A stretch of 64,000 nt of DNA from Scatophagus argus (lineage: Eukaryota; Chordata; Actinopteri; Scatophagidae), in contig NC_058499.1 in assembly GCF_020382885.2 (NCBI RefSeq), positions 15,051,872 to 15,115,871 on the forward strand. Direction: 5' to 3'. A program made the position numbers and the translations under genes. Below are positions 25,427 through 58,082 of this stretch, in pieces. Positions within the stretch are counted from its first letter, which is position 1. The number at the start of each line of letters is the position of its first letter. Under the pieces are notes generated by a model. The model saw nothing but the letters and a program-made list of their open reading frames with translations. It had not been told where the DNA came from and did not search any database.

Positions 25427-25514
<88 letters not shown>

Positions 25515-28322: not shown

Positions 28323-29089
28323 GGCTGGAGCCGGAGCCGGTGTGCTGGGGCCCGGAACTCCAATGCATGGATGAGGCGGTCGACTACCCCGAGATATTGC
28401 TGTATTAATAGGACAGGTGTTGTGGGGAGCCGAGACGACGGCAGAATGTTGTATAAGTATTTATCCTGTATGAGGAGGAAAAAGTAAGATAAGGTGCAAT
28501 AACGTTCACCGAGCACGATGTGTGTGGTGCAATCAGCAGAAAACTCGGGGAAACGCGGAAGACAAGGTACAGTCTCCTCCTACCGGCGTACCGAAGTCCC
28601 TGCTACAGATTCAGTGCTTGTGTGCGCTATTAACGTCTGGGGCACATTCTTCCTTCTGTCTAAACCGCGAAAACTGTAGTCCCGCCAGGGGAAATAATTA
28701 AAGGTTTAGATGGACATTTAACTAGCAGAACACAATCCACGAGACATAACTGAAGACTTACGTGGTGGTGAAAAAAAAAAAAAAAAAAAAAAAATCACGA
28801 ATAGTGCTAAGGACAAAATTTCTAAATGACGTAGTGACGCAAGCACGTAGAATGTTATTCCTCTGCGCAAGCGCGTAGGAAGGGTTCTTAAGTCACAGCT
28901 GATCAAAGCAGGATAACGACAGACTTCAAAGCCAAAAAAAAAAAAAAAGACAGACATCAAAGCCATGGATGGCTTTCAACGTCATATATTCCTGACAGAA
29001 ATAGTAAAAGTGTACTAACATTACTTAAGTCTTTGCTGAATTTATTCGGTCTTGTTGGAGAGATATTCAGTCTCATTCCTAAGGTAAGT
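28323..29089. promoter_or_regulatory. Intergenic promoter region between divergent bmal2 and the coiled-coil gene
   Basis: About 770 bp separate the bmal2 ATG (minus) from the coiled-coil ATG (plus). The stretch has CpGs, an NRF1-like TGCGCAAGCGCG (28864-28875) and CRE-like GACGTAGTGACG (28827-28838). Two A runs (about 24 bases from 28769, about 15 from 28935) flank this core. The head-to-head layout suggests a shared bidirectional promoter; this is inference. Confidence 0.4.
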
Positions 29090-30484
29090 ATGGATCAAGA
29101 AAATATCTACTCAATTTTGTGTCTTTCAGATACAGAGGAAGAAGAAACAGCTACGCCTGTTTTCTATACCGACGAGCTTCAACAAAGAATTTATGAATTG
29201 GAAAGGAGGAATAGGAATCAGGAACATAACTCTGAGCGTCAATCACTGGGAAACACATTTGACTTGGAGCCCAATGATGTGAGGGATGAGACTGCCAGGC
29301 TGTCAGTCAGTGTCAACGACTTAAACAAGCTGGAAGAAGAGAAATTGGTTTTGGGTGAGAAGAATAACACTATGACTGATGAGTTGTTCTATCTCCGGTC
29401 ACGGTGTGATAAACAACGGACTGAAATTGAACATCTTCAGGAAGCAGTTTATTGTCAAGAATCTGTCATCAGGCACGAACAAGCAGAGGCCGAACAGCTG
29501 AGGGCACAACTGCAGAAGGCCACTGATGAGGTAGCCCTTCTTGAATCTAAGTGGAAGAAAAAAGAAAAGGAGAATGAACAGCTCAGGGCAGCAATGTATG
29601 ACCTTGAGCATCAACTACAGACCACTCAGCAAGACACTACTACTGAACTGACCCAACTTAAATTTCAATTAAACACAAAACAGGAACTAATTCAACACTT
29701 GTCAATGGATGTTGATAATTTGAACGCCCATGTTGAATCTCTGAGGAGGGACAAACAGGTTGAAAGGTTGACAAAAGCGCTGCATGATCTTCAACATGAG
29801 AAAGACTGTCTGAAGACACAGAATAACAAAATGGTCGATGAGCTGGCTCAATGCGAGTCTCTGTCAAAGAAACAAAGTGAAGAGATCAAAATCCTGGAGA
29901 CCTCTGTGCAAGATCTTCAGTGCCAACTGAGGGAGGCCATGGATCAAATTTGGAATGACGAAGAGCTAAAAACAAAGAAAGACAGGGAAATTGCCTATGG
30001 ACAAGAAATTATGGAGGAGCTTTACGCCCATACAAGTGAAATGAGACAAACAATTCGCGATCTTAAACATCAGCTAGAGATGAGGCAGGAGGACGCATTA
30101 GCTGACAATATGAGTTTCAGAGAGGAATGTAGGATCTTGGCTGAAAATACAGAACAGCTAGACTCGCCTGAGGAGCAGAGAGATCAGAACGGTGTCGAGA
30201 TTACACATGAGGAGCAGAGAGATGAGAGCCTCTTGGAGAATCCAGCCACAGAGCCTCCAGCTGCTGAGGATGACAATGGAAGTTTGTGGCGTTGCTGTGT
30301 TAAAGGATTTTTGAAAGGTGTTTTCTATGCTGGCATCACCGGAGCCTGTATACTTGCTCCTGTGGCCACCACACTGATTACCAACAACAGCACATACCCT
30401 TTCGACTGCCTGTCAGAATGTGTCTATGACCTGGCAGAGGCCTTCAGCAGCTTCCGATTCTCTTCCAACACTCGCCCCTTCTAA
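29090..30484 (+). CDS. Unrecognised coiled-coil protein with C-terminal hydrophobic segment (copy 1)
   Basis: A single open exon of 464 residues. The frame is open further upstream, but the first ATG is at 29090 with A at -3 and G at +4, giving MDQENIYSILCLSDTEEEE. Residues about 30-345 are heptad-rich coiled coil high in Glu, Gln, Lys and Leu. An acidic stretch follows, with one partial 13-residue unit (DESLLENP context), then PATEPPAAE. A tail of about 65 residues carries one hydrophobic segment (GVFYAGITGACILAPVATTL), a Cys-containing CLSECVYDL and ends RPF. The layout suggests a tail-anchored or single-pass membrane coiled-coil protein; that is inference. I do not recognise the family. 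It is followed by a degraded tandem paralogue with a homologous 3' flank. A perfect GTAAGT lies just before the ATG (29084-29089), so an upstream 5' UTR splice may exist. Confidence 0.7.
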   Translation: MDQENIYSILCLSDTEEEETATPVFYTDELQQRIYELERRNRNQEHNSERQSLGNTFDLEPNDVRDETARLSVSVNDLNKLEEEKLVLGEKNNTMTDELFYLRSRCDKQRTEIEHLQEAVYCQESVIRHEQAEAEQLRAQLQKATDEVALLESKWKKKEKENEQLRAAMYDLEHQLQTTQQDTTTELTQLKFQLNTKQELIQHLSMDVDNLNAHVESLRRDKQVERLTKALHDLQHEKDCLKTQNNKMVDELAQCESLSKKQSEEIKILETSVQDLQCQLREAMDQIWNDEELKTKKDREIAYGQEIMEELYAHTSEMRQTIRDLKHQLEMRQEDALADNMSFREECRILAENTEQLDSPEEQRDQNGVEITHEEQRDESLLENPATEPPAAEDDNGSLWRCCVKGFLKGVFYAGITGACILAPVATTLITNNSTYPFDCLSECVYDLAEAFSSFRFSSNTRPF

Positions 30485-30870
30485 GCAACACAAACCACCA
30501 TCTAACCGTAATCCTATCTATCGGCGGAAGGCATTTCTCCCCCATTTATGCAGGGTTTTCTCCAGGTGCTCTGGTTTCCCCACACTGTTCAAAGAGTAAC
30601 TGATCAGGCCCCAAGATGTGAGCGTTAGTGTGAATGATGACATCTCAACCAAAATGAGCTGCAAAATGTATATATCATATTGGTTGACAGGTGTAGTTAG
30701 TGGATGGATAGAAAGAAAACTCAGTTACTTAAAAAAAAAAAAAAAGAACAATGGATTGACAGTGATAAAAAAAACAACCTAAAATGCCGAAAAATAGTGT
30801 CAAAATGGTTACAAATATGTATTAAGAAAGAAAAGAAATTATAAATAAGATTTACAAATGTACTCACCTT
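30485..30870 (+). repeat. 3' flank of copy 1 with a teleost dispersed repeat
   Basis: After the stop, 30549-30715 contains GGTTTTCTCCAGGTGCTCTG, GTGTGAATGATGACATCTCA and a terminal TGGATGGATAG. This is the general pattern of a common teleost dispersed repeat (GGTTTTCTCC...GGATGG). The same sequence occurs after copy 2 (32804-32965), showing that the tandem duplication included the 3' flank. A poly(A)-like run follows at 30730-30744. Confidence 0.6.
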
Positions 30871-32673
30871 AGGTGTACACACCTTACACAACAAGTGCAA
30901 ACTTTAAAGACAGAGCTTGCAGAATGTCGTGGCCAGTCAAATGAATGCAGTTCCCATTTGGAGGTTACAGCGTTGGAAGCAGGGAAAATCAAGCTTCAGA
31001 CATTCCAGTCTGAGGTAAATATGCTTCAGCTGGAGTTAAATGATGCAAGGGAGACGGAGACCCACCTTATACAAAAAGTGCAATCTTTAATGGAAGAGCT
31101 TGCGGAATGTCGTGGCCAGTTGAATCAGAGCAATTCCAGGATGGAGGACATGGCACTGGAAGCTACTAATCTGTTGGATGAGAAAATCAGGGTGGAGTCA
31201 CTTCGATCTGAGATAAATGTGCTTAATTCATCAGGATAACGAGAAGATTCTGATGAGGCAGATTAACAGTCTCACTGCTGAGGTGGCCCAACTGAAATGT
31301 CTGAATGAAGCAGACCAAGCAGAGATTCAAAAGTTGAGTACCACAGTGTGTGACCTTGAGAACTGGGCAGAGAAGGCTCAACAAGACCGCAGGGATAAAG
31401 ATGAGTTAATAGAGATAGCAACTGCACTTGTAAGCCTGAACGAAACAACGCAGACAGAGAACAAACACCTCTTGGCATCAGTGCATGATCTGCAGGAAAG
31501 GGAAACAATATTAAATAAGACTCAGGAGAGTCTGACTGCTGAGGTGGCCCAACTGAAATGTTTGAACGCCACAAACCAAGCGGAAATTAAAAGTCTGAAG
31601 GCAGAAGCACATGAAAGTCAGAAACTGGAAGAGATTCTTAACAATGGGAATAAGATCATGGCCGGTGAGTTGGCTCAACAGGAGTTTCTGACAGAGAGAC
31701 TAAACAACGAAAACAAAGACCTCAGGACTGCTTTGCAAGATCTTCAGGACCAACTGCAGGAAGCTATGCAACTAATCTCTGACAAAGATGAGCTAATAAC
31801 AAAGCAAGCCTCTGAAATTGCATTTAAGCAGCAAATGGTAGAGGAGCTGAACATGAAAAAGACAATCCATGACCCAAAAGAGATGATGCAGGAGGAGGAA
31901 ATATTAGCTGATGTTGAAGATTTCAGAGATGAACGTAGGATCTTGGCTGAAGATACAGGGCAACCAGACTCACCAGAGGATCAGAGAGATGAGAGTCTCC
32001 TGGAGACTACACATGAGGAGCTGATAGATGAGAGCCTCCTTGGCACTGTCAATGAGGAGGAGAGAGATGAGAGCCTCCTGGAGACTACATGTGAGGAGTG
32101 CAGAAACAAGAGATTCCTGCAGACTACACATGAGGAATTGAGAGATGAGAACCTCCTTGAGACTATCAGTGAGGAAGAGAGAGATGAAAGCCTCATGGAG
32201 ACTACACATGATGTACTGATAGATGATAACCTCCTTAAGACTATCAGTGAGGAGGAGAGAGATGAGAGACTTCTTGAGACTATCAATGAGGAGGATAGAG
32301 ATGAGAGCCTCCTGGAGACTACACATGAGGAGCTGATAGATGAGAGCCTCCTTGGGACTATCAATGAGGAGGAGAGAGATGAGAGCTTCCTGAAGACTAC
32401 ATGTGAGGAGGGCAGAGATGAGAGCCTCCTGGAGAATCCAGTTGCAGTACCTCCAGCTGCTGAGGTTCAGACAAGAAATCTGTGGCATCGCTGTGCAGAA
32501 GGACTTCTGACATCCGCTTTGTATGTTGGTATGGCAGGTGTGTACTTGCTCCCGTGGCCACCACACTAATTACTATCTCCAGAGAAAATCCTGTCAACTG
32601 CCTGTCAGAGTGTGTGTACAACATGCTGGAGAGCTACAGCAACTTCGAACACACAGTTCTTCGTCCCTTCTAA
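30871..32673 (+). pseudogene. Tandem paralogue of the coiled-coil gene, frameshifted (copy 2)
   Basis: Coiled-coil sequence similar to copy 1 but in three frame segments. Frame 1 runs to 31239 and has no ATG at its left end (an acceptor-like CACCTTAG precedes 30871). A second frame runs from ATG 31217 to the stop at 32569 (450 residues). The tail CVLAPVATTLI...CLSECVYNML...RPF is in frame 1 again, ending 32673. Aligned with copy 1, a net 4-base deletion near 32540-32550 breaks the hydrophobic segment. The region equivalent to residues 1 to about 30 of copy 1 is not found. An 11-unit 13-residue repeat fills 31988-32416. It may be a decaying copy, or still express the 450-residue frame with a truncated tail; untested. 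The first part also has an internal duplication (ELAECRGQ at two sites). Confidence 0.65.
31988..32416 (+). repeat. 39-bp in-frame tandem repeat, 11 copies (13 residues each)
   Basis: Eleven consecutive 13-residue units of consensus DESLLETTHEELI or DESLLGTINEEER, all in one frame without indels (11 x 39 = 429 bases), followed at 32417 by DESLLENP, which matches copy 1. Units differ by substitutions (for example DDNLLKTISEEER, DERLLETINEEDR), so the array is not brand new. Strongly acidic. Confidence 0.9.
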
Positions 32674-33010
32674 ACAAGACAAACATATACTGTGCACATG
32701 ACTAGGACAATTTTCAACACGTTTCAGTGAAGACATTAGACCCTACTGTATCTGTATCATCATGTCTGTCTATCTATCATGTCTGTCTATCTCCCCACGT
32801 AGGGTTTTCTCCAGGTGCTCTGGTTTCCCCATACTTTTTCAAACATTAGCAGATTAGGCCCCCAGGTGTGAGTATGTGTGTGTGTGTGTGTGAATGATGA
32901 CCTCTCACCCAAAATGAGCTGCAAGACTCATACTGGGTGACAGGTCCAGATTGTGGATGGATGGAAGGGGACTATAAACTAATGAATGAAAAAAAAAAAA
33001 AAAAATCTAA
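32674..33010 (+). repeat. 3' flank of copy 2, source of half of the satellite unit
   Basis: 32711-32840 is nearly identical to the first half of every 299-bp unit downstream (TTTTCAACACGTTTCAGTGA ... CCATACTTTTTC), including GTCTGTCTATCT repeats. 32841-33010 (dispersed-repeat remainder, TG run and poly-A at 32990-33005) is absent from the units. This appears to be the pre-amplification arrangement. Confidence 0.8.
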
Positions 33011-36000
33011 CACATTTATGTATGCACATTATTTATATGACCTAGAGGTTGGAGAAGCGGCTTGTGATCGGAGGGTCACCGGTTCGATTCCCCCACCGGA
33101 CGGGTAGGGAAAATTTGGGTGTGGTGGAGTGATTAATGCGAAAAATGCATTAGCTGGCTGATGTGCCGGCTAATGCATTTTCAGCACGTTTCAGTGAAGA
33201 CATTAGACCCTACTGTATCTGTATCATCCTGTCTGTCTATCTATGATGTCTGTCTATCTCCCCACGTAGGGTTTTCTCCAGGTGCTCTGGTTTCCCCATA
33301 CTTTTTCCCCACATTTATGTATGCACATTATTTATATGACCTAGAGGTTGGAGAAGCGGCTTGTGATCGGAGGGTCACCGGTTCGATTCCCCCACCGGAC
33401 GGGCAGGGAAAATTTGGGTGTGGTGGAGTGATTAATGCGAAAAATGCATTAGCTGGCTGATGTGCCGGCTAATGCATTTTCAACACGTTTCAGTGAAGAC
33501 ATTAGACCCTACTGTATCTGTATCATCCTGTCTGTCTATCTATCATGTCTGTCTATCTCCCCACGTAGGGTTTTCTCCAGGTGCTGTGGTTTCCCCATAC
33601 TTTTTCCCCACATTTATGTATGCACATTATTTATATGACCTAGAGGTTGGAGAAGCGGCTTGTGATCGGAGGGTCACCGGTTCGATTCCCCCACCGGACG
33701 GGCAGGAAAAATTTGAGTGTGGTGGAGTGATTAATGCGAAAAATGCATTAGCTGGCTGATGTGCGGGCTAATGCATTTTCAACACGTTTCAGTGAAGACA
33801 TTAGACTCTACTGTATCTGTATCATCCTGTCTGTCTATCTATCATGTCTGTCTATCTCCCCACGTAGGGTTTTCTCCAGGTGCTCTGGTTTCCCCATACT
33901 TTTTCCCCACATTTATGTATGCACATTATTTATATGACCTAGAGGTTGGAGAAGCGGCTTGTGATCGGAGGGTCACCGGTTCGATTCCCCCACCGGACGG
34001 GCAGGAAAAATTTGGGTGTGGTGGAGTGATTAATGCGAAAAATGCATTAGCTGGCTGATGTGCCGGCTAATGCATTTTCAACACGTTTCAGTGAAGACAT
34101 TAGACCCTACTGTATCTGTATCATCCTGTCTGTCTATCTATCATGTCTGTCTATCTCCCCACGTAGGGTTTTCTCCAGGTGCTCTGGTTTCCCCATACTT
34201 TTTCCCCACATTTATGTATGCACATTATTTATATGACCTAGAGGTTGGAGAAGCGGCTTGTGATCGGAGGGTCACCGGTTCGATTCCCCCACCGGACGGG
34301 CAGGAAAAATTTGAGTGTGGTGGAGTGATTAATGCGAAAAATGCATTAGCTGGCTGATGTACCGGCTAATGCATTTTCAGCACGTTTCAGTGAAGACATT
34401 AGACCCTACTGTATCTGTATCATCCTGTCTGTCTATCTATGATGTCTGTCTATCTCCCCACGTAGGGTTTTCTCCAGGTGCTCTGGTTTCCCCATACTTT
34501 TTCCCCACATTTATGTATGCACATTATTTATATGACCTAGAGGTTGGAGAAGCGGCTTGTGATCGGAGGGTCACCGGTTCGATTCCCCCACCGGACGGGC
34601 AGGGAAAATTTGGGTGTGGTGGAGTGATTAATGCGAAAAATGCATTAGCTGGCTGATGTGCCGGCTAATGCATTTTCAACACGTTTCAGTGAAGACATTA
34701 GACCCTACTGTATCTGTATCATCCTGTCTGTCTATCTATCATGTCTGTCTATCTCCCCACGTAGGGTTTTCTCCAGGTGCTGTGGTTTCCCCATACTTTT
34801 TCCCCACATTTATGTATGCACATTATTTATATGACCTAGAGGTTGGAGAAGCGGCTTGTGATCGGAGGGTCACCGGTTCGATTCCCCCACCGGACGGGCA
34901 GGAAAAATTTGAGTGTGGTGGAGTGATTAATGCGAAAAATGCATTAGCTGGCTGATGTGCGGGCTAATGCATTTTCAACACGTTTCAGTGAAGACATTAG
35001 ACTCTACTGTATCTGTATCATCCTGTCTGTCTATCTATCATGTCTGTCTATCTCCCCACGTAGGGTTTTCTCCAGGTGCTGTGGTTTCCCCATACTTTTT
35101 CCCCACATTTATGTATGCACATTATTTATATGACCTAGAGGTTGGAGAAGCGGCTTGTGATCGGAGGGTCACCGGTTCGATTCCCCCACCGGACGGGTAG
35201 GGAAAATTTGGGTGTGGTGGAGTGATTAATGCGAAAAATGCATTAGCTGGCTGATGTGCCGGCTAATGCATTTTCAGCACGTTTCAGTGAAGACATTAGA
35301 CCCTACTGTATCTGTATCATCCTGTCTGTCTATCTATGATGTCTGTCTATCTCCCCACGTAGGGTTTTCTCCAGGTGCTCTGGTTTCCCCATACTTTTTC
35401 CCCACATTTATGTATGCACATTATTTATATGACCTAGAGGTTGGAGAAGCGGCTTGTGATCGGAGGGTCACCGGTTCGATTCCCCCACCGGACGGGCAGG
35501 GAAAATTTGGGTGTGGTGGAGTGATTAATGCGAAAAATGCATTAGCTGGCTGATGTGCCGGCTAATGCATTTTCAACACGTTTCAGTGAAGACATTAGAC
35601 CCTACTGTATCTGTATCATCCTGTCTGTCTATCTATCATGTCTGTCTATCTCCCCACGTAGGGTTTTCTCCAGGTGCTGTGGTTTCCCCATACTTTTTCC
35701 CCACATTTATGTATGCACATTATTTATATGACCTAGAGGTTGGAGAAGCGGCTTGTGATCGGAGGGTCACCGGTTCGATTCCCCCACCGGACGGGCAGGA
35801 AAAATTTGAGTGTGGTGGAGTGATTAATGCGAAAAATGCATTAGCTGGCTGATGTGCGGGCTAATGCATTTTCAACACGTTTCAGTGAAGACATTAGACT
35901 CTACTGTATCTGTATCATCCTGTCTGTCTATCTATCATGTCTGTCTATCTCCCCACGTAGGGTTTTCTCCAGGTGCTGTGGTTTCCCCATACTTTTTCCC

Positions 36001-39000
36001 CACATTTATGTATGCACATTATTTATATGACCTAGAGGTTGGAGAAGCGGCTTGTGATCGGAGGGTCACCGGTTCGATTCCCCCACCGGACGGGCAGGAA
36101 AAATTTGGGTGTGGTGGAGTGATTAATGCGAAAAATGCATTAGCTGGCTGATGTGCCGGCTAATGCATTTTCAACACGTTTCAGTGAAGACATTAGACCC
36201 TACTGTATCTGTATCATCCTGTCTGTCTATCTATCATGTCTGTCTATCTCCCCACGTAGGGTTTTCTCCAGGTGCTCTGGTTTCCCCATACTTTTTCCCC
36301 ACATTTATGTATGCACATTATTTATATGACCTAGAGGTTGGAGAAGCGGCTTGTGATCGGAGGGTCACCGGTTCGATTCCCCCACCGGACGGGCAGGAAA
36401 AATTTGAGTGTGGTGGAGTGATTAATGCGAAAAATGCATTAGCTGGCTGATGTGCCGGCTAATGCATTTTCAACACGTTTCAGTGAAGACATTAGACCCT
36501 ACTGTATCTGTATCATCCTGTCTGTCTATCTATCATGTCTGTCTATCTCCCCACGTAGGGTTTTCTCCAGGTGCTCTGGTTTCCCCATACTTTTTCCCCA
36601 CATTTATGTATGCACATTATTTATATGACCTAGAGGTTGGAGAAGCGGCTTGTGATCGGAGGGTCACCGGTTCGATTCCCCCACCGGACGGGCAGGAAAA
36701 ATTTGGGTGTGGTGGAGTGATTAATGCGAAAAATGCATTAGCTGGCTGATGTGCCGGCTAATGCATTTTCAACACGTTTCAGTGAAGACATTAGACCCTA
36801 CTGTATCTGTATCATCCTGTCTGTCTATCTATGATGTCTGTCTATCTCCCCACGTAGGGTTTTCTCCAGGTGCTCTGGTTTCCCCATACTTTTTCCCCAC
36901 ATTTATGTATGCACATTATTTATATGACCTAGAGGTTGGAGAAGCGGCTTGTGATCGGAGGGTCACCGGTTCGATTCCCCCACCGGACGGGCAGGAAAAA
37001 TTTGGGTGTGGTGGAGTGATTAATGCGAAAAATGCATTAGCTGGCTGATGTGCCGGCTAATGCATTTTCAACACGTTTCAGTGAAGACATTAGACCCTAC
37101 TGTATCTGTATCATCCTGTCTGTCTATCTATGATGTCTGTCTATCTCCCCACGTAGGGTTTTCTCCAGGTGCTGTGGTTTCCCCATACTTTTTCCCCACA
37201 TTTATGTATGCACATTATTTGTATGACCTAGAGGTTGGAGAAGCGGCTTGTGATCGGAGGGTCACCGGTTCGATTCCCCCACCGGACGGGCAGGAAAAAT
37301 TTGAGTGTGGTGGAGTGATTAATGCGAAAAATGCATTGGCTGGCTGATGTGCCGGGTAATGCATTTTCAACACATTTCAGTGAAGACATTAGACCCTACT
37401 GTATCTGTATCATCCTGTCTGTCTATCTATGATGTCTGTCTATCTCCCCACGTAGGGTTTTCTCCAGGTGCTGTGGTTTCCCCATACTTTTTCCCCACAT
37501 TTATGTATGCACATTATTTATATGACCTAGAGGTTGGAGAAGCGGCTTGTGATCGGAGGGTCACCGGTTCGATTCCCCCACCGGACGGGCAGGAAAAATT
37601 TGGGTGTGGTGGAGTGATTAATGCGAAAAATGCATTAGCTGGCTGATGTGCCGGCTAATGCATTTTCAACACGTTTCAGTGAAGACATTAGACCCTACTG
37701 TATCTGTATCATCCTGTCTGTCTATCTATGATGTCTGTCTATCTCCCCACGTAGGGTTTTCTCCAGGTGCTCTGGTTTCCCCATACTTTTTCCCCACATT
37801 TATGTATGCACATTATTTGTATGACCTAGAGGTTGGAGAAGCGGCTTGTGATCGGAGGGTCACCGGTTCGATTCCCCCACCGGACGGGCAGGAAAAATTT
37901 GAGTGTGGTGGAGTGATTAATGCGAAAAATGCATTGGCTGGCTGATGTGCCGGGTAATGCATTTTCAACACGTTTCAGTGAAGACATTAGACCCTACTGT
38001 ATCTGTATCATCCTGTCTGTCTATCTATGATGTCTGTCTATCTCCCCACGTAGGGTTTTCTCCAGGTGCTGTGGTTTCCCCATACTTTTTCCCCACATTT
38101 ATGTATGCACATTATTTATATGACCTAGAGGTTGGAGAAGCGGCTTGTGATCGGAGGGTCACCGGTTCGATTCCCCCACCGGACGGGTAGGGAAAATTTG
38201 GGTGTGGTGGAGTGATTAATGCGAAAAATGCATTAGCTGGCTGATGTGCCGGCTAATGCATTTTCAACACGTTTCAGTGAAGACATTAGACCCTACTGTA
38301 TCTGTATCATCCTGTCTGTCTATCTATGATGTCTGTCTATCTCCCCACGTAGGGTTTTCTCCAGGTGCTCTGGTTTCCCCATACTTTTTCCCCACATTTA
38401 TGTATGCACATTATTTATATGACCTAGAGGTTGGAGAAGCGGCTTGTGATCGGAGGGTCACCGGTTCGATTCCCCCACCGGACGGGCAGAGAAAATTTGG
38501 GTGTGGTGGAGTGATTAATGCGAAAAATGCATTAGCTGGCTGATGTGCCGGCTAATGCATTTTCAACACGTTTCAGTGAAGACATTAGACCCTACTGTAT
38601 CTGTATCATCCTGTCTGTCTATCTATCATGTCTGTCTATCTCCCCACGTAGGGTTTTCTCCAGGTGCTGTGGTTTCCCCATACTTTTTCCCCACATTTAT
38701 GTATGCACATTATTTATATGACCTAGAGGTTGGAGAAGCGTCTTGTGATCGGAGGGTCACCGGTTCGATTCCCCCACCGGACGGGCAGGAAAAATTTGAG
38801 TGTGGTGGAGTGATTAATGCGAAAAATGCATTAGCTGGCTGATGTGCGGGCTAATGCATTTTCAACACGTTTCAGTGAAGACATTAGACTCTACTGTATC
38901 TGTATCATCCTGTCTGTCTATCTATCATGTCTGTCTATCTCCCCACGTAGGGTTTTCTCCAGGTGCTGTGGTTTCCCCATACTTTTTCCCCACATTTATG

Positions 39001-42000
39001 TATGCGCATTATTTATATGACCTAGAGGTTGGAGAAGCGGCTTGTGATCGGAGGGTCACCGGTTCGATTCCCCCACCGGACGGGCAGGGAAAATTTGGGT
39101 GTGGTGGAGTGATTAATGCGAAAAATGCATTAGCTGGCTGATGTGCCGGCTAATGCATTTTCAACACGTTTCAGTGAAGACATTAGACCCTACTGTATCT
39201 GTATCATCCTGTCTGTCTATCTATCATGTCTGTCTATCTCCCCACGTAGGGTTTTCTCCAGGTGCTCTGGTTTCCCCATACTTTTTCCCCACATTTATGT
39301 ATGCACATTATTTATATGACCTAGAGGTTGGAGAAGCGGCTTGTGATCGGAGGGTCACCGGTTCGATTCCCCCACCGGACGGGCAGGAAAGATTTGAGTG
39401 TGGTGGAGTGATTAATGCGAAAAATGCATTAGCTGGCTGATGTGCGGGCTAATGCATTTTCAACACGTTTCAGTGAAGACATTAGACTCTACTGTATCTG
39501 TATCATCCTGTCTGTCTATCTATCATGTCTGTCTATCTCCCCACGTAGGGTTTTCTCGAGGTGCTGTGGTTTCCCCATACTTTTTCCCCACATTTGTGTA
39601 TGCACATTATTTATATGACCTAGAGGTTGGAGAAGCGGCTTGTGATCGGAGGGTCACCGGTTCGATTCCCCCACCGGACGGGCAGGAAAAATTTGAGTGT
39701 GGTGGAGTGATTAATGCGAAAAATGCATTAGCTGGCTGATGTGCCGGCTAATGCATTTTCAACACGTTTCAGTGAAGACATTAGACCCTACTGTATCTGT
39801 ATCATCCTGTCTGTCTATCTATGATGTCTGTCTATCTCCCCACGTAGGGTTTTCTCCAGGTGCTGTGGTTTCCCCATACTTTTTCCCCACATTTATGTAT
39901 GCACATTATTTATATGACCTAGAGGTTGGAGAAGCGGCTTGTGATCGGAGGGTCACCGGTTCGATTCCCCCACCGGACGGGCAGGGAAAATTTGGGTGTG
40001 GTGGAGTGATTAATGCGAAAAATGCATTAGCTGGCTGATGTGCCGGCTAATGCATTTTCAACACGTTTCAGTGAAGACATTAGACCCTACTGTATCTGTA
40101 TCATCCTGTCTGTCTATCTATCATGTCTGTCTATCTCCCCACGTAGGGTTTTCTCCAGGTGCTCTGGTTTCCCCATACCTTTTCCCCACATTTATGTATG
40201 CACATTATTTATATGACCTAGAGGTTGGAGAAGCGGCTTGTGATCGGAGGGTCACCGGTTCGATTCCCCCACCGGACGGGCAGGAAAGATTTGAGTGTGG
40301 TGGAGTGATTAATGCGAAAAATGCATTAGCTGGCTGATGTGCGGGCTAATGCATTTTCAACACGTTTCAGTGAAGACATTAGACTCTACTGTATCTGTAT
40401 CATCCTGTCTGTCTATCTATCATGTCTGTCTATCTCCCCACGTAGGGTTTTCTCCAGGTGCTGTGGTTTCCCCATACTTTTTCCCCACATTTATGTATGC
40501 ACATTATTTATATGACCTAGAGGTTGGAGAAGCGGCTTGTGATCGGAGGGTCACCGGTTCGATTCCCCCACCGGACGGGCAGGAAAAATTTGGGTGTGGT
40601 GGAATGATTAATGCGAAAAATGCATTAGCTGGCTGATGTGCCGGCTAATGCATTTTCAACACGTTTCAGTGAAGACATTAGACCCTACTGTATCTGTATC
40701 ATCCTGTCTGTCTATCTATGATGTCTGTCTATCTCCCCACGTAGGGTTTTCTCCAGGTGCTGTGGTTTCCCCATACTTTTTCCCCACATTTATGTATGCA
40801 CATTATTTATATGACCTAGAGGTTGGAGAAGCGGCTTGTGATCGGAGGGTCACCGGTTCGATTCCCCCACCGGACGGGCAGGAAAAATTTGAGTGTGGTG
40901 GAGTGATTAATGCGAAAAATGCATTAGCTGGCTGATGTGCCGGCTAATGCATTTTCAACACGTTTCAGTGAAGACATTAGACCCTACTGTATCTGTATCA
41001 TCCTGTCTGTCTATCTATGATGTCTGTCTATCTCCCCACGTAGGGTTTTCTCCAGGTGCTGTGGTTTCCCCATACTTTTTCCCCACATTTATGTATGCAC
41101 ATTATTTGTATGACCTAGAGGTTGGAGAAGCGGCTTGTGATCGGAGGGTCACCGGTTCGATTCCCCCACCGGACGGGCAGGAAAAATTTGAGTGTGGTGG
41201 AGTGATTAATGCGAAAAATGCATTGGCTGGCTGATGTGCCGGGTAATGCATTTTCAACACATTTCAGTGAAGACATTAGACCCTACTGTATCTGTATCAT
41301 CCTGTCTGTCTATCTATGATGTCTGTCTATCTCCCCACGTAGGGTTTTCTCCAGGTGCTGTGGTTTCCCCATACTTTTTCCCCACATTTATGTATGCACA
41401 TTATTTATATGACCTAGAGGTTGGAGAAGCGGCTTGTGATCGGAGGGTCACCGGTTCGATTCCCCCACCGGACGGGCAGGAAAAATTTGGGTGTGGTGGA
41501 GTGATTAATGCGAAAAATGCATTAGCTGGCTGATGTGCCGGCTAATGCATTTTCAACACGTTTCAGTGAAGACATTAGACCCTACTGTATCTGTATCATC
41601 CTGTCTGTCTATCTATGATGTCTGTCTATCTCCCCACGTAGGGTTTTCTCCAGGTGCTCTGGTTTCCCCATACTTTTTCCCCACATTTATGTATGCACAT
41701 TATTTGTATGACCTAGAGGTTGGAGAAGCGGCTTGTGATCGGAGGGTCACCGGTTCGATTCCCCCACCGGACGGGCAGGAAAAATTTGAGTGTGGTGGAG
41801 TGATTAATGCGAAAAATGCATTGGCTGGCTGATGTGCCGGGTAATGCATTTTCAACACGTTTCAGTGAAGACATTAGACCCTACTGTATCTGTATCATCC
41901 TGTCTGTCTATCTATGATGTCTGTCTATCTCCCCACGTAGGGTTTTCTCCAGGTGCTGTGGTTTCCCCATACTTTTTCCCCACATTTATGTATGCACATT

Positions 42001-45000
42001 ATTTATATGACCTAGAGGTTGGAGAAGCGGCTTGTGATCGGAGGGTCACCGGTTCGATTCCCCCACCGGACGGGTAGGGAAAATTTGGGTGTGGTGGAGT
42101 GATTAATGCGAAAAATGCATTAGCTGGCTGATGTGCCGGCTAATGCATTTTCAACACGTTTCAGTGAAGACATTAGACCCTACTGTATCTGTATCATCCT
42201 GTCTGTCTATCTATGATGTCTGTCTATCTCCCCACGTAGGGTTTTCTCCAGGTGCTCTGGTTTCCCCATACTTTTTCCCCACATTTATGTATGCACATTA
42301 TTTATATGACCTAGAGGTTGGAGAAGCGGCTTGTGATCGGAGGGTCACCGGTTCGATTCCCCCACCGGACGGGCAGAGAAAATTTGGGTGTGGTGGAGTG
42401 ATTAATGCGAAAAATGCATTAGCTGGCTGATGTGCCGGCTAATGCATTTTCAACACGTTTCAGTGAAGACATTAGACCCTACTGTATCTGTATCATCCTG
42501 TCTGTCTATCTATCATGTCTGTCTATCTCCCCACGTAGGGTTTTCTCCAGGTGCTGTGGTTTCCCCATACTTTTTCCCCACATTTATGTATGCACATTAT
42601 TTATATGACCTAGAGGTTGGAGAAGCGTCTTGTGATCGGAGGGTCACCGGTTCGATTCCCCCACCGGACGGGCAGGAAAAATTTGAGTGTGGTGGAGTGA
42701 TTAATGCGAAAAATGCATTAGCTGGCTGATGTGCGGGCTAATGCATTTTCAACACGTTTCAGTGAAGACATTAGACTCTACTGTATCTGTATCATCCTGT
42801 CTGTCTATCTATCATGTCTGTCTATCTCCCCACGTAGGGTTTTCTCCAGGTGCTGTGGTTTCCCCATACTTTTTCCCCACATTTATGTATGCGCATTATT
42901 TATATGACCTAGAGGTTGGAGAAGCGGCTTGTGATCGGAGGGTCACCGGTTCGATTCCCCCACCGGACGGGCAGGGAAAATTTGGGTGTGGTGGAGTGAT
43001 TAATGCGAAAAATGCATTAGCTGGCTGATGTGCCGGCTAATGCATTTTCAACACGTTTCAGTGAAGACATTAGACCCTACTGTATCTGTATCATCCTGTC
43101 TGTCTATCTATCATGTCTGTCTATCTCCCCACGTAGGGTTTTCTCCAGGTGCTCTGGTTTCCCCATACTTTTTCCCCACATTTATGTATGCACATTATTT
43201 ATATGACCTAGAGGTTGGAGAAGCGGCTTGTGATCGGAGGGTCACCGGTTCGATTCCCCCACCGGACGGGCAGGAAAGATTTGAGTGTGGTGGAGTGATT
43301 AATGCGAAAAATGCATTAGCTGGCTGATGTGCGGGCTAATGCATTTTCAACACGTTTCAGTGAAGACATTAGACTCTACTGTATCTGTATCATCCTGTCT
43401 GTCTATCTATCATGTCTGTCTATCTCCCCACGTAGGGTTTTCTCGAGGTGCTGTGGTTTCCCCATACTTTTTCCCCACATTTGTGTATGCACATTATTTA
43501 TATGACCTAGAGGTTGGAGAAGCGGCTTGTGATCGGAGGGTCACCGGTTCGATTCCCCCACCGGACGGGCAGGAAAAATTTGAGTGTGGTGGAGTGATTA
43601 ATGCGAAAAATGCATTAGCTGGCTGATGTGCCGGCTAATGCATTTTCAACACGTTTCAGTGAAGACATTAGACCCTACTGTATCTGTATCATCCTGTCTG
43701 TCTATCTATGATGTCTGTCTATCTCCCCACGTAGGGTTTTCTCCAGGTGCTGTGGTTTCCCCATACTTTTTCCCCACATTTATGTATGCACATTATTTAT
43801 ATGACCTAGAGGTTGGAGAAGCGGCTTGTGATCGGAGGGTCACCGGTTCGATTCCCCCACCGGACGGGCAGGGAAAATTTGGGTGTGGTGGAGTGATTAA
43901 TGCGAAAAATGCATTAGCTGGCTGATGTGCCGGCTAATGCATTTTCAACACGTTTCAGTGAAGACATTAGACCCTACTGTATCTGTATCATCCTGTCTGT
44001 CTATCTATCATGTCTGTCTATCTCCCCACGTAGGGTTTTCTCCAGGTGCTCTGGTTTCCCCATACCTTTTCCCCACATTTATGTATGCACATTATTTATA
44101 TGACCTAGAGGTTGGAGAAGCGGCTTGTGATCGGAGGGTCACCGGTTCGATTCCCCCACCGGACGGGCAGGAAAGATTTGAGTGTGGTGGAGTGATTAAT
44201 GCGAAAAATGCATTAGCTGGCTGATGTGCGGGCTAATGCATTTTCAACACGTTTCAGTGAAGACATTAGACTCTACTGTATCTGTATCATCCTGTCTGTC
44301 TATCTATCATGTCTGTCTATCTCCCCACGTAGGGTTTTCTCCAGGTGCTGTGGTTTCCCCATACTTTTTCCCCACATTTATGTATGCACATTATTTATAT
44401 GACCTAGAGGTTGGAGAAGCGGCTTGTGATCGGAGGGTCACCGGTTCGATTCCCCCACCGGACGGGCAGGAAAAATTTGGGTGTGGTGGAATGATTAATG
44501 CGAAAAATGCATTAGCTGGCTGATGTGCCGGCTAATGCATTTTCAACACGTTTCAGTGAAGACATTAGACCCTACTGTATCTGTATCATCCTGTCTGTCT
44601 ATCTATGATGTCTGTCTATCTCCCCACGTAGGGTTTTCTCCAGGTGCTGTGGTTTCCCCATACTTTTTCCCCACATTTATGTATGCACATTATTTATATG
44701 ACCTAGAGGTTGGAGAAGCGGCTTGTGATCGGAGGGTCACCGGTTCGATTCCCCCACCGGACGGGCAGGAAAAATTTGAGTGTGGTGGAGTGATTAATGC
44801 GAAAAATGCATTAGCTGGCTGATGTGCCGGCTAATGCATTTTCAACACGTTTCAGTGAAGACATTAGACCCTACTGTATCTGTATCATCCTGTCTGTCTA
44901 TCTATCATGTCTGTCTATCTCCCCACGTAGGGTTTTCTCCAGGTGCTGTGGTTTCCCCATACTTTTTCCCCACATTTATGTATGCACATTATTTATATGA

Positions 45001-45330
45001 CCTAGAGGTTGGAGAAGCGGCTTGTGATCGGAGGGTCACCGGTTCGATTCCCCCACCGGACAGGCAGGAAAAATTTGGGTGTGATGAAGTGATTAATGCG
45101 AAAAATGCATTAGCTGGCTGATGTGCCGGCTAATGCATTTTCAACACGTTTCAGTGAAGACATTAGACCCTACTGTATCTGTATCATCCTGTCTGTCTAT
45201 CTCTCATGTCTCTCTATCTCCCCACGTAGGGTTTTCTCCAGGTGCACCGGTTCGATTCCCCCACTGGAGCGGCAGGAAAAATTTGGGTGTGGTGGAGTGA
45301 TTAATGCGAAAAAAGGGGGGGCTATGAAAA
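33011..45330 (+). repeat. 299-bp satellite-like tandem array, about 41 units
   Basis: CACATTTATGTATGCAC recurs every 299 bases from 33011 to 44971 (40 exact periods, 41 starts), head to tail, with a decayed partial unit at about 45123-45330. Each unit = a tRNA-derived SINE segment (TAGAGGTTGGAGAAGCGG, B-box-like GGTTCGATTCC), a junction hairpin, then a segment copied from the 3' flank of coiled-coil copy 2. Units differ at a few diagnostic positions (CATG/GATG, CTCTGG/CTGTGG, TTTGGG/TTTGAG, GCCGGC/GCGGGC), which reveal a higher-order structure. Because 299 is not a multiple of three, open frames of about 99 codons appear in every unit in rotating frames; these are by-products, not genes. Confidence 0.97.
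37000..44900 (+). repeat. Higher-order duplication inside the array: two 13-unit blocks of 3,887 bp
   Basis: Rare unit variants recur at a spacing of exactly 13 x 299 = 3,887 bases: CACATTTCAG (37370 and 41257), GGGTAGGG (about 38184 and 42071), GCGTCTTG (38738 and 42625), TATGCGCATT (39001 and 42888), TCTCGAGG (39554 and 43441), CATACCTTTT (40175 and 44062). Identity between the blocks looks essentially complete from about 36994-41020 against 40881-44907. Confidence 0.9.
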
Positions 45331-45370
45331 GGGGACTATGAACTAATGAATGAAAAAAATAAAAAAATCT

Positions 45371-45570
45371 AACACATTTATGTATGCACATTATTTATAT
45401 GACCTAGAGGTTGGAGAAGCGTCTTGTGATCGGAGGGTCACCGGTTCGATTCCCCCACCGGACGGGCAGGAAAAATTTGGGTGTGGTGGAGTGATTAATG
45501 CGAAAAATGCATTAGCCGGCTGATGTGCCCTTGAGGAAGGCACTTAACCCCCAACATGCTGTACTGAGAA
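45371..45570 (+). mobile_element. tRNA-derived SINE copy at the right edge of the array
   Basis: Same sequence as the SINE part of the satellite unit, but here it continues past GATGTGCC into CTTGAGGAAGGCACTTAACC, the usual continuation of teleost tRNA-derived SINEs. It retains GGTTCGATTCC (B box). It marks the intact parent or a flanking sister copy; the sequence just before it (45334-45370) resembles that left of the array (32967-33010). Confidence 0.75.
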
Positions 45571-47272
45571 AATGACATAATTATATACAGTCTAGTGATT
45601 GTGGGTCCTTCTGCAGAATAACCTCAGACATGGCACTTCCTCATTCCAAACACTAGATGGCAGGCAAGACAAACTTACAAATGGATCTTGTTCAAAAAGC
45701 CCATTCAGACATTACTTTTCAAAATAATTTTGCATCTTAAATCCATGAATTACTTAAAATGTTGCTAAATTTACTAATTTCATTTTGGTGTTTAAAGGAC
45801 AATTTTAGAGTTCCTGAAATTGGTGGAGTGGAGTGGAACCGAAAGATCCACAGTGAAATTACAAATTTGTTGAGAGTAATATTTGAATGTTGAATCATTA
45901 ACATGAATCATTAACACTTTTTCCAGCTTCTGTTTAACATTGTGATGTGTGCATCTGCCTTTGTGACTCAGTGCCATGTAATTATACTCCCTTCATTGTT
46001 ATTCATAATCTTAAATGAATTTTTAATCATTGCAGCATTAGAAGTTTGCTGGTTGAGGTTCATGGGTTTTTTCATCTTTAAAATGTATTAATTTATTAAT
46101 AAATTGCAGTGCAATGGCTGCTGTACTGCTTTAGATCAAAGTAGATATCAAAGTAGATCAAAGTACTAGCTTAAGTAGTATCTGATTGACATACCATACA
46201 GTACATGTAAAAATAAAACAAGCAAACAGAAAAAAGCTGTGACGTATACTTTATTGGTTTTTGATGGATGTGCTCACCAGCCCATTGCTAAAGAAGGCTC
46301 CAAGAGCTCAGATCCACACCACCCACACTACTGTTTAAATTTTAAAATCTCCCTGAAATGCTGCACATCTAATTGTCTGCAAAGAGGGAAACTCACTCAG
46401 AAAAATGATGTGATGCCCACTGCTGGCAAAAATAAACAATAAGTGTCAAATGGTAAGACGGTTGGTGTTGCTGCTTAGTGTAAAAACTATACAGCTTCAT
46501 GTTAGCAGTTATGATTTTTGTCACTCCCTCATAAGTACAGAATTTTTATTCATGGAAAACCACGAGAGTAAACCTGGAACCTGATGGTTGTGTCTTAGAT
46601 TTCACCTAGCTACTCATGTCTCACCTCAATGCAACTTGTCAAGCTCATACATAATTAATTGTTGGTCCACTGGGCTGCTATCATATGAACTTAGCCAGCT
46701 GAAGGGGTGGTGCTGGGGAGATGATGATGAGTAAAGCAAGGGGGCTGGGTTTTGGGAAACCAGCTACACCTGCCCCTCCTCAGTAGGAATGGATGAGTTA
46801 TGAGATGGAGAGGAGATCTAAGCAGTCCGTTCAATTCAGCTGCAGACAAAAGGGGGCTCACAATGTTTAGAGACTAAAACCTGGATTTAACACATTTGCT
46901 CTAATTTGCTTTCATCCTTATTCATCCATTATATTTTTTCCTAAACTGGATCTTTTGGAGATGAAACAAGCCCCAGAGGCTCTGGCTGCATTGTGCTTTG
47001 GACACTGAAGAATACTTCAGCATCATCCTCTTCTCCACTTCTTCATTGAATCCTTTCATCACAACAGAGAAAGGTGGAGAGGAAAAGTCCGTCTTACCTC
47101 TGAGGGATCTGTGGCGAGACTGAAAGGTGAAGCGAGAACCCGGTGCCACCAACTCAGGAAGGAAGAGGGGCAGCTTCTAGTGGATTTTATTTTGCAGAAC
47201 AAAGTGTGCTACTGAGGTTTCAAGACACTGTTTACAGATTAAAGGGGAGAGAAAATAAAGAGGCAGAGAAAA
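45571..47272. other. Spacer and 5' UTR region upstream of slc17a8
   Basis: AT-rich sequence without recognisable coding exons. The slc17a8 transcription start must lie before 47273 but its position is not evident; no clear TATA box with support was found. Confidence 0.5.

Positions 47273-57854: not shown

Positions 57855-57907
<53 letters not shown>
57855..57907. repeat. TG dinucleotide microsatellite
   Basis: About 26 uninterrupted TG units in the slc17a8-nr1h4 spacer. Confidence 0.95.
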
Positions 57908-57910
<3 letters not shown>

Positions 57911-58082
57911 GGTGGGTGGGTGGGGGTGTTTGTAGTAAGGATGACATGGACAGGAATGGACAGTTTAATTAATAACCACCATCCATTTCTCCCTGACCTC
58001 AGCTGGTTACACATGTTCTGACTGGAGCCCAGACAGAAGCAACTTAGTGTTCATTAGCAAATACTGATTGAGTTGCAGCTCA

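Follow-up and report, generated by a model that had tools for sequence, protein, structure and literature searches.

The window, the 64,000-nucleotide stretch of Scatophagus argus DNA that was analyzed, holds a tandem array flanked by a pair of coiled-coil genes on the left and a vesicular glutamate transporter gene on the right. The coiled-coil genes stand in tandem at 28892-32673 and are related in their C-terminal ends. Copy 1 has 530 open codons and a weak Fez1 match below the Pfam cut-off; copy 2 is, by alignment, 4 bases short near its end, and its open reading frame ends early at 32569. Inside the copy 2 reading frame, at 31976-32435, we found another tandem repeat with periods of 39 bp and 117 bp (three times 39) and 75-80% matches, a second higher-order repeat that is more diverged and smaller than the satellite and lies a few hundred bases from it. 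The source of the array starts about 40 bp past the copy 2 stop codon, as read in the frame of copy 1, and the array region ends about 2.6 kb before an open reading frame matching vesicular glutamate transporter 3 (E 1.3e-38). Farther out, the window carries an ARNT-like fragment and a nuclear-receptor zinc finger, which mark the DNA as animal and most likely vertebrate, and its SINE features suggest a teleost. Long (AT)n and (TG)n microsatellites are found at 25430-25498 and 57855-57933.

Tandem Repeats Finder reported a period of 299 bp over 33011-45245, with 40.9 copies, 98% matches and 0% indels. An anchor taken from the SINE part of the unit, searched with at most 4 mismatches, recovered 42 copies whose spacings were exactly 299 bp forty times, followed by one final spacing of 402 bp. 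With 2-3 mismatches permitted, we tallied 42 left-part starts, 41 unit junctions and 40 deletion joints, so that the 299-bp array amplified about 41 times in the original prediction is real. Compared pairwise, the 40 full units are on average 98.47% identical; they vary at 21 sites and comprise 22 distinct sequences, units 1-27 alone accounting for 21. No homopolymer in the 40 units is longer than 5. The stretches prone to slippage, namely (TG)n and 17 consecutive A, sat in the deleted segment D, and the lack of indels is therefore less striking than it appears. Coordinates of all features are collected in Table 1.

Table 1. Coordinates of the array, its source and its joints, numbered from the first letter of the window.
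Feature	Position	Strand	Method or remark
Coiled-coil copy 1 3' flank, undeleted relative of 32801-33003	30552-30745	+	blastn
Left part (L) of source, gene-flank sequence	32710-32840	+	
Segment D, retained at source	32841-33010	+	missing from all 40 deletion joints
Right part (R), SINE plus short 5' flank of SINE	33011-33167	+	
Forty consecutive full units, each exactly 299 bp	33011-44970	+	Tandem Repeats Finder, anchor spacing
Founding joint in first unit	33142-33181	+	17-nt arms 33142-33158 and 33165-33181, 6-nt loop
First deletion joint (CC in place of D)	33308-33309	+	40 such joints, motif starts 33297 to 44958
Latest expansion	37006-44905	+	37006-41018 identical to 40893-44905 over 4013 bp; shift 13 units (3887 bp)
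Unit 41, truncated	44971-45245	+	
SINE fragment, 68 bp	45246-45313	+	3 mismatches to right SINE; ends in A run at base of fold-back arm
D 3' tail retained at right edge	45329-45372	+	aligned to left D tail from 32965
Right-edge SINE, continuing past unit junction	45373-45570	+	R equivalent 45373-45529

Nearly the whole unit can be traced to its immediate neighborhood. With the exception of the CC that replaces D and nine bases at the junction, it consists of contiguous local sequence in local order and on the local strand. Against the unit consensus, the left part of the source shows 2 differences in 131 positions and the right-edge SINE, before the junction, 2 in 157, with one of the two polymorphic among units in either case; these small distances bear out the expectation of a young array. 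The same observations weigh against an old dispersed satellite that later captured the flank and the SINE, since identity to the local sequence is about 98-99%, part of the unit is a paralogous gene flank, and blastn found no further copies of the source or the SINE in the window besides the copy 1 flank and simple-repeat matches. We consider such an origin extremely unlikely. Alignment of the unit to the source gives replacement of 32841-33010 (170 bp) by CC, so the proposed arithmetic of 467 minus 168 giving 299 holds. The CC may have been templated by TTTCCCCA just upstream, a match too short to serve as evidence.

The polarity of this change can be read from the paralogous gene flank. By blastn, the copy 1 flank aligns to 32801-33003 with 74.4% identity over 211 columns and is unbroken at the 32840/32841 breakpoint. 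Because the alignment crosses the breakpoint, the undeleted form already existed before the two gene flanks diverged, and the change in the array was a deletion of D and not an insertion at the source, in agreement with the internal loss originally proposed. The segment 32711-33177 had also been described as single-copy and as entirely parental. Neither description applies strictly: 32801-33003 has the 74%-identical relative just mentioned, and 33168-33176 is a novel inverted insertion formed at the junction. Most of 32684-32800 in the copy 2 flank lacks a counterpart in the copy 1 flank, reflecting either insertion here or loss there. When an empty site of the SINE was sought in the copy 1 flank, similarity there stopped at the A run.

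The sequence at the unit junctions is more complex than a simple head-to-tail join. In the right-edge SINE, GATGTGCC continues into CTTGAGG. At the unit junctions (41/41, allowing few mismatches) it continues instead into GGCTAATGCATTTTC and then into the left flank. The 17-nt stretch GCCGGCTAATGCATTTT at 33165-33181 is the exact reverse complement of the right-edge SINE at 45504-45520, an inverted templated insertion directly beside its template, and the two arms in the first unit have one T-G position at present. The net novel bases at the joint number nine, GGCTAATGC, and the arm shares the microhomology ATTTT with the left flank at 32710, five bases that on their own are weak evidence. Since the nine junction bases repeat the adjacent SINE in reverse complement and ATTTT microhomology follows them, the first duplication carries what reads as a fold-back template-switch joint, a feature absent from the original prediction. 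Only 23 of 200,000 random 9-mers from the window had a reverse complement in the 60-nt arm region (draws landing inside the excluded region 32600-45700 being scored as misses), and among window 17-mers outside 32600-45700 there were none. The longest inverted repeat of unit 2, with loops of 3-20, measured 13 against at most 9 in 300 shuffles, and the unit 2 joint (33440-33482) folded as DNA at -17.1 kcal/mol (z -7.92). Unit position 145 is C in the right SINE, with its complement in the arm, and T in 40/40 units. Because the arm holds the complement of the older C, it was copied before the C145T substitution. The inverted nine nucleotides could instead derive from another SINE copy and not from the same strand.

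Once founded, the array appears to have grown at least partly in multi-unit blocks, and recombination was probably involved. At a lag of 13 units, 12/27 unit pairs are identical, as compared to 0/39 at lag 1. Growth unit by unit is not supported, neighbors being no more alike than random pairs: mean differences at lag 1 were 5.13 versus 4.56 in shuffled arrays for the 40 units and 4.81 versus 4.38 for units 1-27. Type C units directly follow type B units in 9/9 cases array-wide and in 6/6 within units 1-27, where none of 20,000 permutations attained 6/6, with types B and C defined after the variants were seen. Identical pairs within units 1-27 include 1/8, 4/11 and 7/10. In these units, which exclude the repeated block, the share of 2000 shuffles whose mean did not exceed the observed one was 0.07, 0.26, 0.016 and 0.054 for lags 3, 7, 10 and 13, respectively, a weak order signal. 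In the four-gamete test, 10/210 site pairs failed, which can result from recombination or repeated mutation. Multi-unit blocks at high identity, as in higher-order repeats, are present, with only one block repeat clear. With zero differences in 4013 bp, this last expansion is either very recent or a duplication made by the assembly. An assembly artefact inflating the copy number would be compatible with any history considered here and would account for an exact repeat at a 13-unit shift. It fits poorly with the 21 distinct sequences in units 1-27, and the number of copies has no bearing on the founding and deletion joints; we give it little weight.

Both parents adjoin their product, as had been proposed, with the undeleted source at the left and, at the right, a SINE that runs on past the unit junction. 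Two further elements of the right edge had gone unmentioned, a SINE fragment of 68 bp and a 3' tail of D. The fragment stands in place of the equivalents of 32820-32964, which the right edge lacks, and 15 bases separate it from the D tail. D sequence is thus kept at both ends of the array and in 0/40 of the intervening joints. This remnant of D at the right edge favors an order in which all 467 bp were first duplicated and D was deleted afterwards, over a single founding step with a built-in internal loss, as originally envisaged. Duplication first is most likely but not proven, because no clean undeleted copy stands at the right edge. The segment 45246-45328 further shows three clustered changes in the SINE fragment and a short imperfect duplication of AAGGGG...CTATGAA, and this messy joint and the founding joint share one A tract as their breakpoint.

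The opposite order would place the deletion first, on a single-copy allele, with the D-bearing ends regained by exchange with an undeleted allele. Both ends do hold states that the array has not fixed, namely A at 32762 (left) and C at position 145 (right), yet on this course a deletion allele must have segregated and two exchanges, one per end, must have followed. Fewer steps are needed when duplication comes first, and we judge the opposite order improbable. Alternatively, all joints (fold-back, D skip, SINE fragment and D-tail re-entry) might stem from a single replication catastrophe with microhomology-mediated template switching in one round or very few, the right edge then being an exit joint and not a decayed undeleted copy. 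Several joints do fall inside a single source of 467 bp, the A5/T4 tract at the arm's base serves as breakpoint for two, and the right edge joins L to the SINE fragment and then to mid-D. In addition, unit 41 carries 5 private substitutions in 275 bp, as compared to 0 or 1 per unit over the same stretch in units 1-27. However, the block structure and the accumulated variants require later exchange, and the fixation of C145T after the arm was copied separates founding and amplification in time. A single catastrophe is, in our view, rather unlikely.

Overall, we favor, with a probability of roughly 0.7, a young and locally born satellite, most likely functionless, that arose by fold-back duplication, loss of D and spread in blocks. 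A SINE would have come to lie beside the 3' flank of coiled-coil copy 2, giving the ancestral order L, D, R and SINE end. During rightward synthesis through the SINE, a new strand ending in GTGCC may have folded back on itself, its terminal GCC pairing with a GGC six bases upstream, and its own strand would then have been copied as far as TTTT. Re-annealing of ATTTT to the left flank at 32710 would yield a tandem duplication of about 467 bp. We infer that an inner copy subsequently lost D (170 bp), leaving CC. Unequal exchange or break-induced copying would then have multiplied the shortened unit, in part at least as blocks of several units and most recently 13 at once. The outermost two copies would have escaped overwriting and hence retain ancestral states. 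Microhomology-mediated template switching with snap-back at replication forks has been described for copy-number variants, and the duplication joint resembles its products in combining an inverted templated insertion with microhomology.

We also considered whether the SINE-derived half of the unit retains features of a gene. An A-box-like TGACCTAGAGG at unit positions 28-38 and an exact B box GGTTCGATTCC at 71-81 are present in 40/40 units, both called against the general consensus for such boxes, and the first TTTT lies at unit positions 168-171, at the joint, likewise in 40/40 units. No tRNA match was found in 33000-33200, where a permissive Rfam search returned 12 matches, all below gathering scores; ARAGORN with the bacterial code detected no tRNA, and Rfam at gathering score gave 0 matches across the whole window. 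Sought with two patterns in viral contigs and, as a contamination check, with one pattern in prokaryote genome contigs, the SINE core gave 0 matches in each, and a search of paper texts for the letters of a SINE consensus returned nothing usable. None of the 21 variable sites falls on the 26 box and TTTT positions; this conservation is not significant as a sign of selection (chance P=0.14). The 156-nt stretch of unit 2 covering the boxes and TTTT folds with z -3.78, probably due mainly to the hairpin. Selection on the hairpin is not supported either: 14/40 units carry weakening changes and no compensating pair was seen, the pairing being taken from the predicted DNA fold of the unit 2 joint.

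The array most likely has no function and is passive DNA, with no sign of selection. Under a very unlikely alternative, the fold-back, by copying the SINE AAAA, put a hairpin and a TTTT stop directly behind the A and B boxes, so that each repeat would be a complete predicted Pol III unit with a transcript some 150 nt long, in a cluster of about 41. If true, such a cluster, lying between the coiled-coil gene and the vesicular glutamate transporter gene, could act as a source of RNA or as a boundary bound by TFIIIC. Returning to the passive array that we favor, we regard it as a well-preserved instance of a known process and not as something new in kind. Non-coding DNA beside a gene, one half of it gene flank and the other a mobile element, was multiplied on the spot about forty times, recently enough that the ancestral sequence and the error which joined the first two copies remain legible.

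For satellites with units of hundreds of bases, the origin of the first tandem copy is usually erased by homogenization. Here, the locus still has its original ends as well as both joints, that of the founding and that of the deletion. The founding joint points to fold-back template switching with short microhomology and not to simple unequal exchange between dispersed SINEs, and it makes testable the question of whether other young satellites carry inverted templated bases at their unit boundaries. Among the literature matches listed, in which subscription journals are thinly covered, none described a satellite founded by a readable in-place fold-back. Models of satellite birth do include fold-back of a nascent strand, giving an extrachromosomal intermediate, in the portion of the literature summarized in PMC12628747.

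Minisatellite birth via short flanking direct repeats was described by Haber and Louis in 1998 (cited in PMC6947457). The present locus is similar in that a short homology, here ATTTT, would have given the first duplication and unequal exchange followed, and it differs in that nine inverted fold-back bases precede the short homology and that the unit measures 467 and then 299 bp. According to that review, the slippage model fails for satellites with larger units owing to distance, and a similar proposal exists for maize centromeric repeats (PMC6947457). Tandem families of SINE-like, tRNA-related origin include Xenopus Satellite 1 and Hydromantes Hy/Pol III (PMC9659126, PMC6947457). The origin of Hy/Pol III has been doubted, as it lacks box B, and published examples of SINE-to-satellite conversion were termed inconclusive in PMC10702118. 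In contrast to these established families, the present array has an exact B box and its parent SINE alongside.

The closest parallel is found in the SINE-derived satellites (sSats) of squamates. PMC10702118 describes tandem tRNA-related SINE units, with box B in the snake unit. Most of these satellites have a longer terminal unit reaching the SINE end, and some have two; a di- or trimeric pattern is seen in some species, and birth is conceived in three steps. The main snake unit comprises 67 nt of SINE and occurs at many loci with subtelomeric preference, and the legend of its Fig. 1 also marks regions unrelated to known sequences (PMC10702118). An sSat is recognized by a head-to-tail tandem array of at least 4 units and a longer terminal unit continuing into the SINE; our array contains 40 full steps of 299 bp and continues into the SINE at its right edge from 45373. 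Judged against the squamate satellites, it shares a tandem unit with a SINE part, here putatively tRNA-derived, and the longer terminal unit at the right edge, and it differs in occupying one locus in the window, in a 299-bp unit that includes 131 bp of gene flank, in its fold-back joint and in the ancestral remnants at both ends (PMC10702118). To call the capture of such a founding event uncommon, as in the original prediction, is fair with regard to legibility and less so with regard to kind, as SINE-derived satellites with longer terminal SINE units have been published (PMC10702118). In summary, the locus is an unusually legible further example among SINE-derived satellites.
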